Assembly (NCBI GenBank): GCA_937138395.1
Contig: CAKZPB010000036.1
Location: forward strand, 1-46,782
DNA from: an uncultured Pseudomonadota bacterium
Lineage (GTDB): Bacteria > Pseudomonadota > Gammaproteobacteria > Xanthomonadales > Wenzhouxiangellaceae
DNA: 46,782 bases
Direction: 5' to 3'
Of the stretch, positions 43,044-45,776 are shown piece after piece (the stretch's first letter is position 1; each line of letters begins with the position of its first letter). The position numbers and the translations under genes were made by a program. Under the pieces are notes generated by a model that saw only the letters and a program-made list of their open reading frames with translations, was not told where the DNA came from and searched no databases.

Positions 43044-43304
43044 TTATTCTTCGTGTACGTCGAATTCGCGATCCAGACGATTCATACGCCAGGCGTAATA
43101 GAAGATCAGAATCAGAAAGGTGTAGATCGAACCCTGCTGGGCAAACCAGAAGCCCAGCGGAAAGCCAAATAGCTGAATGCCGTTCAACGGTCCGGCAAAC
43201 AGGATCCCAAGCCCGAACGAGGCAATGAACCAAACAGAAAGACAGACGGCCATGATTTTCAAATTGGCCTGCCAGTACTGATTGCGTTGTGTTTGTTCTG
43301 ACAT
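43044..43304 (-). CDS. DUF4212 small membrane partner of symporter
   Basis: An 86-residue membrane protein of the DUF4212 family. Two helices (about residues 18-37 and 58-76) are joined by a short loop containing FGFPLGFWFAQQGSIYTF, the family hallmark. It ends with a charged tail (MNRLDREFDVHEE). The ATG at 43304 has AGGAG about 8 bases upstream; a longer frame to 43400 lies in the promoter region and is not used. It is encoded directly before the symporter, as in other genomes, and probably forms a small subunit that supports its assembly or activity. Confidence 0.9.
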   Translation of the reverse strand: MSEQTQRNQYWQANLKIMAVCLSVWFIASFGLGILFAGPLNGIQLFGFPLGFWFAQQGSIYTFLILIFYYAWRMNRLDREFDVHEE

Positions 43305-43460
43305 GCGGAGTGCTCCTGATCCAGGGTTTGACTTTATTTGTTGGGAGCAATGTAGCAGTGGGGGGAGGGGATTGCCTTTCGACTTTAGTCGAAGGAGCAT
43401 TTTTTATCATTAAAATCAATGGCTAAGATCGATTTAGCCTCCGTTTTGAAGGCCTTAGAC
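43305..43460. promoter_or_regulatory. Upstream region of symporter operon
   Basis: About 150 bases that should hold the promoter of the DUF4212-symporter operon. A perfect TTCGACT/AGTCGAA inverted repeat at 43378-43393 with a two-base loop lies in it and could be a regulator site or a hairpin. No clear -35/-10 pair was identified. Confidence 0.35.
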
Positions 43461-43489
43461 CGAATTCTTGGAATGGAAGGCAAAGTCAA

Positions 43490-43700
43490 CGGCTTTCCGC
43501 CGCTCACTGCGTGAGCTGATGCGGATTACTTTTGTCGCGCAAAAGTAATCAAAACGCTGTGGCCGGTGTCGGTGCCCGGCTGCGCCGGGTTCCCTGTGGT
43601 GCTCGCCGATTGTCATAACAAGCGCGGGGCGCGCCGAACTCGCTGCGCTCAAACATGCGGCACCTCCTTCCGTGGCGCTCCTCGGCACCGTCAAGGCTCA
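43490..43700. repeat. Multi-hairpin intergenic repeat element
   Basis: A GC-rich stretch packed with perfect hairpins: GCTCAC/GTGAGC at 43502-43516, an 11-base stem GATTACTTTTG/CAAAAGTAATC at 43524-43550 with a 5-base loop, and CCCGGC/GCCGGG at 43575-43589. From memory, this looks like a dispersed extragenic repeat of Xanthomonadales relatives that is often mis-called as small ORFs. No gene is supported. It marks the boundary between the chromosome and the AT-rich island that follows. Confidence 0.5.
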
Positions 43701-43965
43701 CGAACTTCAAAAGCAATTTCAAAACCAAACTTGTCGTGAATCGCTAGTCCTAGTAGTATCTTGACTAAGGATTTTAGTTTGGCTAAAGAAGTGGATTATT
43801 TCCGATTGCTCCAAGCTAAATCGGCAATTAATCAGTAAAGAAATTTATTCTTGAGATTTTGCTGGGTATTTGGAAAATCTATATATTGATTTGTTCATTA
43901 ATAGTACCCTTCTGAATTTTTTTATAGTTTGAAGTTATATGTCTTAGAAAAAAATTAAGGAATAC
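43701..43965. other. AT-rich intergenic DNA
   Basis: About 260 bases of markedly AT-rich sequence starting after the hairpin repeat. No convincing gene is seen. It presumably carries the promoter of the small coupled ORF and the 348-residue gene. An ATG at 43939 opens only to a TAG two codons later. Confidence 0.4.
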
Positions 43966-44079
43966 TTGGAAAAAGCTGTCCGAGCTAGTCTCGCGACTGA
44001 ATATTTAGAAAAAGTCGATTACCAGCTAGAGGTAAACGTCTGTGGCGGCTCCCCTCTACGTGAGCAAAGTAAATTATGA
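43966..44079 (+). CDS. Small ORF coupled to downstream unknown gene
   Basis: A 37-codon frame from TTG (43966) to TGA at 44077-44079, overlapping the ATG of the next gene as ATGA. AAGGA (43957-43961) lies 4 bases before the TTG. The product is charged and helical at first (LEKAVRASLATEYLEKVDYQ) and then contains VNVCGGSPLREQ. In the same frame an ATG sits at 43939, but TAG interrupts at codon 3 (43945-43947), so an originally 46-residue gene may have acquired a nonsense codon. Coupling by overlap and amino-acid-like composition support reality; no family was recognised. It could be a leader peptide, an antitoxin-like partner or a gene remnant. Confidence 0.4.
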   Translation: MEKAVRASLATEYLEKVDYQLEVNVCGGSPLREQSKL

Positions 44080-45122
44080 GCACAGAAGGCAAATTTACAG
44101 GGGTAATTTTTGCATTATTAGGTGAATTCAATGTATGGCCTGCGCCACAGGAGGGTCTAATATTTCATGAAGAGTTGGATGAAGGGGTTATTGATTTTTT
44201 TGGGATTCCCAATTTGGCTATAAAAGTTGTATTAACTCAAAAAAATGGAGAGACATCGCAAGTTGAAACCTGCCCGATAATCAGTGGGCCGGAGATATCG
44301 TTGTTTATTTTTTCTGTCACTTGGGATTTTCCTGAAATAGATGTGCATATCAATGGTCATCATGTCGCATCGACTGATACAACGAAAGTCATTGAAGAAA
44401 ATCTTAAATGGTCCGCAACTGAAAACGATAACAAGTCAATAATTTTCACCGATATAACTGTAGATAATGAACAATACAGGACTCAACGAATCAAAGAAAG
44501 TTGCTCTCTGCAAACAAGAGCAGATCGGTTGCCCGCTAATAATGAAAAGCCATACGAAGACCTGTCTAATGCACTGAAACAACTGCGAGACCAGATAGCC
44601 GCGATCAAACGCGGAGAAATGCATCAAGACACGGCGCTTGCCGCTCGATTACGTGCGCTCATATGTCGTTCCAAGAGTCAATCTCCACTTCTCCAAAGGT
44701 GTGCTGGAGAATTAAAACTACCCCTTATTTTTTATGGTATTCCGCCTCTGCTACCTCAATATTGGGATCCAATTCGAGATGGTGATCTTTCTTCTCCCAT
44801 TGCTTTTTCTATTAAGTTGTCTGCTTCGCCTACAAAAACAATTGCTACACAAGTGGCGATGGATTTAGATTACTGGTTGCAAATGCAATCGGCCAATATG
44901 AATGAAAAACTATACACAAATGACGAAGTTGTCCGCGCTTTTGCTGATACGGAGGGGGCACACTATGACAATGGTGTCGAGCCATTAGTGCAAGCGCTAA
45001 AACGTATAAACCACTTCCGTGCAGAAATGACCATGTTGCATAAATTCTTTCTAATGACTGCTGAATGTGTCTTGGCGATCGGCGAGTACGTTCTCCAAGA
45101 AAAGTTAAAGTTAACTAACTAG
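44076..45122 (+). CDS. Unknown 348-residue protein in AT-rich island
   Basis: A protein without a family I recognise. The N-terminal about 120 residues look beta-rich (EISLFIFSVTWDFPEIDVHIN), like a small sandwich or binding domain. A helical segment with a heptad-like pattern follows at about residues 160-195 (YEDLSNALKQLRDQIAAIKR). The C-terminal half mixes helices and strands and ends helical (ECVLAIGEYVLQEKLKL). No signal peptide or clear membrane segment is present. Base composition is much more AT-rich than the surrounding chromosome, and the gene lies next to an attC-like site, so it was probably acquired as a cassette or island gene. The upstream small ORF overlaps its start. Defence or stress roles are common for such cargo but not shown here. 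Confidence 0.7.
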   Translation: MSTEGKFTGVIFALLGEFNVWPAPQEGLIFHEELDEGVIDFFGIPNLAIKVVLTQKNGETSQVETCPIISGPEISLFIFSVTWDFPEIDVHINGHHVASTDTTKVIEENLKWSATENDNKSIIFTDITVDNEQYRTQRIKESCSLQTRADRLPANNEKPYEDLSNALKQLRDQIAAIKRGEMHQDTALAARLRALICRSKSQSPLLQRCAGELKLPLIFYGIPPLLPQYWDPIRDGDLSSPIAFSIKLSASPTKTIATQVAMDLDYWLQMQSANMNEKLYTNDEVVRAFADTEGAHYDNGVEPLVQALKRINHFRAEMTMLHKFFLMTAECVLAIGEYVLQEKLKLTN

Positions 45123-45155: not shown

Positions 45156-45218
45156 ACACAACAATCGGTTGCAGTGGACGAGCCGCTACGTGGCCCGCCG
45201 CTGAACAAAGCATTATGC
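45156..45218 (+). mobile_element. Integron attC-like recombination site
   Basis: The segment folds as an imperfect inverted repeat typical of attC. GTTGCAGTGG (45169-45178 region) matches the reverse complement of CCGCTGAAC (45199-45207) except for one extra G, the extrahelical base, with a further stem (CGAGCC/GGCCCG) around the loop GCTACGT. The 3' end reads AAAGCATTATGC. Active sites have GTTRRRY here, but the crossover G is A at 45212. The left box (ACACAAC) only loosely matches RYYYAAC. It immediately follows the 348-residue gene as expected for a cassette, but no integrase gene is in the window. Confidence 0.55.
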
Positions 45219-45276: not shown

Positions 45277-45776
45277 TTGAACGCTGAACCAATCATCCGT
45301 CAGGCGTTACGGAATGATCTCCCTGATATTGTCCGGCTGCTTGCCGATGATGCGCTCGGTTCAGGGCGAGAAGAATGCATGTCGCCACAACTGTATAGCT
45401 ACTACACGGCATTTAAGGCGATTGAGTAGGATCCGAACAATGAGCTGATTGTGGTGGAGTTGGATGGTGCTGTGGTCGGGGTACTTCAGTTGACGTTTAT
45501 TCAAACATCACCTGTCGGGGCAGCTGGCGGGCGTTGATTGAGGGTGTTCGTGTTGATTCGTCGGTGCGGAACAAGGGAATTGGCCGCAAGTTGTTTCCCT
45601 GGGCAATCGAACGGGCGAGTCAAAATGGATGCCGGTTGGTTCAGCTCACCTCGGACAAGTCTCGGCCGGAGGCGATTCGGTTTTTCGAATCTTTGGGCTT
45701 TGTGGCGTCTCATGAGGGGTTCAAATTGCAGCTGGAGCCATCCAAGACGGTGCTGGAAGCGAATACAGAGCCGTAG
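45277..45776 (+). pseudogene. GNAT acetyltransferase pseudogene
   Basis: The remains of a GNAT-family N-acetyltransferase. A probable TTG start at 45277 (GGAG about 8 bases before) begins AEPIIRQALRNDLPDIVRLL, the usual first helix. A TAG at 45427-45429 interrupts the frame before DPNNELIVVELDGAVVGVLQL. After TFI the frame shifts: restoring one C near 45502 gives PNITCRGSWRALIEGVRVDS, which reconnects to the acetyl-CoA-binding part VRNKGIGRKLFPWAIERA and SRPEAIRFFESLGF. An upstream ATG at 45264 would be in frame if the run of seven T were six. Two or three lesions make loss of function likely. It lies immediately downstream of the attC-like site, so it is probably a decayed cassette gene. Confidence 0.8.

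Follow-up and report, generated by a model that had tools for sequence, protein, structure and literature searches.

An AT-rich island in the window (the whole stretch of DNA analysed here, 46,782 nt, which is the entire contig C36) is best, though by no means firmly, explained as a former integron cassette, now stranded, whose gene would encode a two-part accessory protein acting against mobile DNA or phage. In this protein, a C-terminal domain derived from PHROG 7805, a family recognised by its DGGAHVD motif, is preceded by a strand-rich N-terminal extension. We favour a degenerate cassette because of the attC-like site found behind the gene, taken with the settings in which the family recurs, and the cassette origin is moderately supported. 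A defence role, a division of labour between a recognition and an effector part, and translational coupling are put forward far more tentatively. The features on which the argument turns are collected in Table 1.

Table 1. Features of the AT-rich island and its surroundings; positions refer to the window unless a locus is named.
Feature	Position	Strand	Basis or remark
DUF4212 gene	43044..43346	-	Pfam DUF4212 E 3.2e-36, ORF read from 43400; adjoins transporter gene; conserved left flank
Dispersed repeat at left edge of AT-rich insert	43482..43730	.	Genome matching
ATG-TCT-TAG, in the frame of the 37-codon ORF	43939..43947	+	Direct reading
37-codon TTG frame; AAGGA 5' of start, ATGA overlap with 348-aa gene	43966..44079	+	ORF list
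Gene for 348-aa orphan two-part protein, ATG start	44076..45122	+	ORF list
Strand-rich N-terminal extension, about residues 1-146; no relatives found in the searches made	44076..44513	+	
C-terminal domain, related to PHROG 7805 (DGGAHVD family) but diverged from it; residues 147-318 match the profile	44514..45119	+	
attC-like site, degenerate; pairing retained in inner stem, partly lost in outer boxes	45156..45218	+	R1 and R2 models
Broken GNAT acetyltransferase gene	45277..45776	+	Acetyltransf_1 E 2.4e-11 for 45534-45776
Family genes lodged among type I restriction genes	L086 2992-3802; L089 2995-3791; L088 2971-3798		

The island differs sharply in composition from the DNA to its left, as the earlier note had remarked. 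The G+C content is 0.412 in the 348-codon gene and 0.392 between 43740 and 45155, against 0.59 for positions 1-43400 of the window; at third codon positions, the gene shows 0.353 versus 0.816 in the neighbouring transporter gene. The transporter and DUF4212 genes occur together in all six stretches fetched from related genomes, and none of these six yielded the 348-codon gene, the GNAT gene or the HTH gene (tblastn, E<=1e-3; one stretch is only 5.7 kb long). The repeat at the left edge has eight other matches, whole or partial, in the same genome and many in the genomes of relatives. The island is a local insertion carrying the 348-codon gene, with its right side visible only as far as the contig end at 46782. 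The adjoining GNAT gene is broken: an in-frame TAG stands at 45427, and the remainder is read in a different frame. Promoter predictions at the locus do not exceed chance (three found, 4.2 expected), and a search of Rfam returned a single match, below threshold.

Searched as a whole, the 348-residue protein gave nothing above cut-off in Pfam and nothing in NCBIfam or PADLOC. Among 369 genomes of the class, close relatives over its entire length were confined to its own genome, and none appeared in the plasmid, phage or viral-contig collections; in the genome-contig collection, ten stretches fitted a pattern and none was confirmed as a whole-protein relative. Profile A1, which includes the window protein, matched six of 398 genomes of the order and profile A6 three of 398 genomes of the phylum, the own genome being counted in both. 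Leaving aside L120 (a 352-codon frame), the same two-part architecture was recognised in none of these matches. The pattern TGAACAAAGCNTTATGC occurred at two places of the own genome, one of them in the window, and its backward control also at two.

A relationship emerged for the C-terminal half, which matched phrog_7805 at E 0.0021, followed by three further PHROGs of unknown function, of which the best reached E 0.006. A profile of 67 relatives, built without the window protein, aligned at its positions 5-177 (of 237) to residues 147-318 with a score of 21.8 bits; the best of 2000 shuffles scored 6.4. Since the C-terminal half lies so far above the shuffle maximum, the large ORF is, on this comparison, beyond chance. 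The profile leaves out eight of 63 loci (L059, L060, L074, L079, L091, L104, L111 and L113) as well as L016, and includes 12 added plasmid, phage and genome relatives. For the structure alignments ten of the 63 loci were set aside, namely the same eight plus L081 and L102. The dropped loci have cut, broken or doubtful frames.

The kinship is a loose one. The window protein shares 15 of the 33 columns that show at least 80% conservation across 53 relatives. Of the six columns invariant in these relatives (R, D, G, G, H and E) it keeps four: D is changed to E, one G is absent and the last E falls beyond the reliable part of the alignment, which is unsure past residue 318. Because only four of the six are kept, we regard the C-terminal half, from its sequence, as a diverged relative of the DGGAHVD family and not as a member. 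In the R-x3-H arrangement of the second helix, where H is found in 49 of the 53 relatives, the R is kept (R193) and the H is replaced by C197. The residues G294, H296, D298 and W267 are likewise held in common with the family. In contrast, besides the change at 197, R has given way to N at 282 and D to E at 293, the motif is short of one G, and about 146 extra N-terminal residues are present that were not seen in the relatives examined. As conserved family residues have been lost, the function of the family may not carry over to the window protein.

The predicted structure of the window protein has an overall pLDDT of 61.7, being good in the helices at 158-213 and 282-347 and poor in the first 146 residues. 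In this extension, strands are predicted at 7-101 with low confidence (means of 10-residue blocks mostly between 29 and 65), and the searches made gave no usable match to it. Assignments of the N-terminal part as lectin-like or Ig-like, suggested by sequence patterns, were discarded since the model is poor there; the best VIA-align rows, with Z up to 6.1, were mixed beta sandwiches and stayed under the level at which this tool is meaningful. Remote homology and structure prediction, which the earlier note had proposed as a check on the protein, thus related the C-terminal half to PHROG 7805 and left the N-terminal part unmatched.

The DGGAHVD family is uncharacterised and found across many bacterial phyla as well as in phages and plasmids. 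Relatives were collected from 24 plasmid records and three phage records, from 13 of 55 candidate stretches in viral contigs and from 50 of 101 candidate stretches in genomes. The organism titles of the genome relatives include Vibrio, Marinobacter, Luteimonas, Clostridium, Streptococcus and Flavobacterium, as well as Acidobacteria, Chloroflexi, Patescibacteria and Planctomycetota. An ordinary member of the family is modelled with confidence by AlphaFold (pLDDT 94.2, pTM 0.91). Compared with the PDB by Foldseek, this model gave 17 matches, none at E<=0.001, and its best VIA-align result (AadA, Z 3.4 over 95 residues) is not meaningful. Two matches at E<=0.001 were obtained among viral structures, one to an uncharacterised Gordonia phage protein and one to an unnamed protein. 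For a predicted structure, such absence of a solved match is no proof of a new fold. Two apparent leads were dropped. The 720-aa frame of L060 could be taken for a fusion; its first 500 residues, judged by eye, resemble a non-coding open frame and are probably a false extension. RptR, a restriction-system repressor described as a dimeric DNA-binding protein in the available part of PMC12255303, was considered as a possible family match, and nothing in that part ties it to the DGGAHVD family.

Members of the family are repeatedly found in integrons. Sites were sought with two attC models, R1 (a covariance model trained on ten L044 and L045 sites) and R2. An attC lies directly 3' of the family gene in seven loci: in L066, L068, L071 and L073 its first base lies inside the ORF, 5-47 nt short of the ORF end, and in L044, L045 and L047 the family gene is one of several cassettes in an array. 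A search of 18 loci, which include L123, not a family locus, gave attC matches at E<=0.05 in seven (L044, L065, L066, L068, L071, L072 and L073). This count is a lower bound because the attCs of L047, which were read by eye, were missed by R1 and R2 alike. The nearest family relatives, 56-76% identical to each other, are integron cassettes time and again. One site of the otherwise regular attC array of L045 (2136-2192) has ATT instead of GTT at its core, as is also seen in the window.

In the window, an attC-like site begins 33 nt past the stop of the 348-codon gene, on the same strand. R1 ranked it first in the 46.8-kb window (12.6 bits, E 0.87), and R2 (13.5 bits, E 0.87) placed it second to a match of 14.0 bits at another position. 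Taken alone and over the whole window, the site is not significant. For comparison, R1 returned nine matches (E up to 5) in the vicinity of integrase genes from genomes of the same genus and family; seven of them scored 19.8-38.8 bits (E<=0.025) and were spread over four of seven integrase-neighbouring stretches, the two weaker ones reaching 16.1 and 14.0 bits. The number of matches of this quality to be expected in the 100 nt 3' of the gene, counting its strand only, is estimated at about 0.001, but the site had been picked for its attC resemblance. The inner stem is kept, GTT-G-CAGTGG facing CCGCTGAAC with one extra-helical base. Of the seven pairs between the outer boxes ACACAAC and ATTATGC four are formed and three broken, and R' (ATTATGC) is devoid of the GTT core. 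Folding of the region as a single strand shows nothing unusual (z 0.11 and -0.74). The attC-like site that the earlier note placed behind the gene is present, in degenerate form.

The arrangement resembles that of chromosomal integron cassettes in having a single gene followed, on the same strand, by an attC-like site whose inner stem is paired. Unlike these, it has degenerate outer boxes, no left boundary and no adjacent integron. Neither an attI nor a second attC was detected between 43400 and 44100 (R1 at E<=10, R2 at E<=5, models by which the sites of L047 were missed), and R1 run on the whole own genome, window included, returned no attC at the sensitivity of that search. Judging by this blank result of R1 and by the failure of both models on L047, the sensitivity of the attC models is limited. 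Two scanners of our own making were put aside: one found the window site alone, with none in 40 shuffles, but had been designed once that site was known and failed on the true sites of L044 and L045; the other gave 15 chance-like matches in the window, the attC-like site not among them.

A catalytically complete integron integrase was not found in the own genome, where the integron-integrase model made six partial matches, none over the cut-off. An integrase might lie in an unassembled part since the genome is in 142 contigs. The best match, on contig C31 (170.6 bits), is without the terminal catalytic Tyr motif. When the product of G000:C31:29166-30143 (L010, L115) is aligned with integrase-like proteins of three genomes of the same genus (L116, L117 and L118), the catalytic Tyr motif is absent and RHS is changed to RNS; both neighbours of the L010 gene are kept in L116 and L117 and one in L118. 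The best match in all five same-genus genomes shows 36-41% identity, and each of the five has a second, more distant integrase match besides it. The C31 protein looks like a retained, catalytically dead relative of the integrase. At the edge of contig C79 (4-138, L014) an integrase-type frame fragment runs into a stop; by eye and from its motifs we take it to read like an ordinary integron integrase, and it is possibly the remnant of a lost or unassembled integron.

The earlier note had also called attention to the small frame preceding the gene, and the ATGA overlap between the two ORFs is plain to see. Equally evident is the ATG with a TAG at codon 3 in the frame of the small ORF, possibly the relic of a decayed longer first gene as that note surmised. 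Because AAGGA precedes its TTG, translation of the 37-codon frame is possible, and the ribosome site of the main gene looks weak by eye. The case against chance is weaker here than for the large ORF: in dinucleotide shuffles of the 346 nt upstream, a frame of at least 37 codons ending at exactly the same place arose in 24 of 2000 cases, a count that covers this one layout, other layouts equally remarkable adding to the chance; ORFs of 33-63 aa in other frames are also present inside the 348-codon gene. One could imagine a toxin-antitoxin or two-gene defence pair, as the earlier note proposed, in which the 37-residue product neutralises or activates the large protein and is co-translated with it through the ATGA. 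The rarity of such frames among the shuffles and the AAGGA speak for a pair, as does the frequency of toxin-antitoxin cassettes in integrons, described as common in the available text of PMC12444791. We nonetheless consider it highly improbable. Searches with the small frame gave no Pfam match up to E 1 (its extended form has one, below threshold at E 0.13), nothing in NCBIfam and no convincing tblastn match in the fetched loci (best E 0.45), and the large protein is without a PADLOC match. Among the 63 loci of C-terminal-domain relatives, an upstream frame of at least 25 aa with an exact 4-nt overlap occurs in five, with lengths of 387 (L086), 385 (L089), 947 (L097), 28 (L098) and 95 aa (L110); of the three products that could be identified two are HsdS and one is UvrA-like, and a small partner was identified in none. 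From its sequence, the 37-codon frame is probably a chance occurrence or a leader rather than a partner gene.

Two further explanations must be weighed against a stranded cassette. The gene could be an AT-rich orphan brought in by another mobile element, such as a phage or plasmid fragment or a repeat-mediated insertion, and the attC-like site a chance hairpin. The presence of the family in phages and plasmids, the dispersed repeat bordering the insert on its left, and the E value of 0.87 for a site placed first by one model and second by another would all fit this. However, where the site lies, the strand it is on and the build of its inner stem suit a cassette, and so does the recurrence of cassettes among the nearest family relatives; we hold such an origin to be unlikely, though worth keeping in mind. 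A similar, rather low probability attaches to the idea that the cassette is no longer selected and is on its way to becoming a pseudogene, like the adjacent GNAT gene, with an inert product. The broken state of that neighbour, the loss of conserved family residues and the lack of promoters in excess of chance are as this idea would have them, whereas a frame of 348 codons has stayed intact at 41% G+C. The earlier view of the island as foreign cargo is upheld by the attC-like site 3' of the gene and by kinship to a family borne on integrons, phages and plasmids.

If the island is indeed a stranded cassette, it would have entered through the attC that now survives, degenerate, 3' of the gene, and loss of the outer pairing would have left this site poorly mobile or immobile. 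The product would be a stand-alone intracellular accessory protein directed against mobile DNA or phage, in which the N-terminal part might recognise something and the C-terminal part perform the activity of the family; at most, the 37-codon frame would serve as a leader coupling translation of the main gene. The locus invites comparison with integron-borne anti-phage cassettes, its cargo having no known function and an integron-type setting. It also resembles the integron cassette genes of Xanthomonas, most of which, according to the available portion of PMC12444791, have no known function and which are frequently singletons.

A defence role of the window protein is plausible through the family only. 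In L086 and L089 the family gene shares 4 nt with HsdS and is followed by HsdR, with an additional frame intervening in L089; in L088 the family gene is set between HsdM and HsdR. These three loci come from metagenome-assembled genomes assigned to Patescibacteria/Parcubacteria and Bacteroidales. Annotated defence-type genes lie near four of 12 fetched plasmid or phage relatives (L020, L022, L024 and L030; a raw, uncontrolled count) and comprise type I genes, a type II system, an ABC-three-component system or an ATPase-helicase pair. The neighbours in L097, L110 and L103 are a UvrA-like protein, ParB and an unknown protein, respectively. The 119 neighbours of the 63 loci matched 173 PADLOC families, an uncontrolled figure that does not count proteins; among the matches listed, mad2, type I specificity and type IIG appear in three members each. 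A bolder proposal, which we regard as doubtful, is that the DGGAHVD family constitutes an unrecognised module against mobile elements, with a fold not among the solved structures, that is deployed as a solo integron cassette, as phage or plasmid cargo or as an extra subunit of type I restriction operons. The window protein would then be a fused form with a new N-terminal recognition domain, in which the presumed active residues have drifted.

By itself, the locus is a minor orphan, ordinary in kind, and its value lies in the family reached from it. Present in many phyla, modelled with confidence, without a solved match in Foldseek and recurrent in integrons and type I operons, this family is a candidate for a new component of defence or counter-defence.
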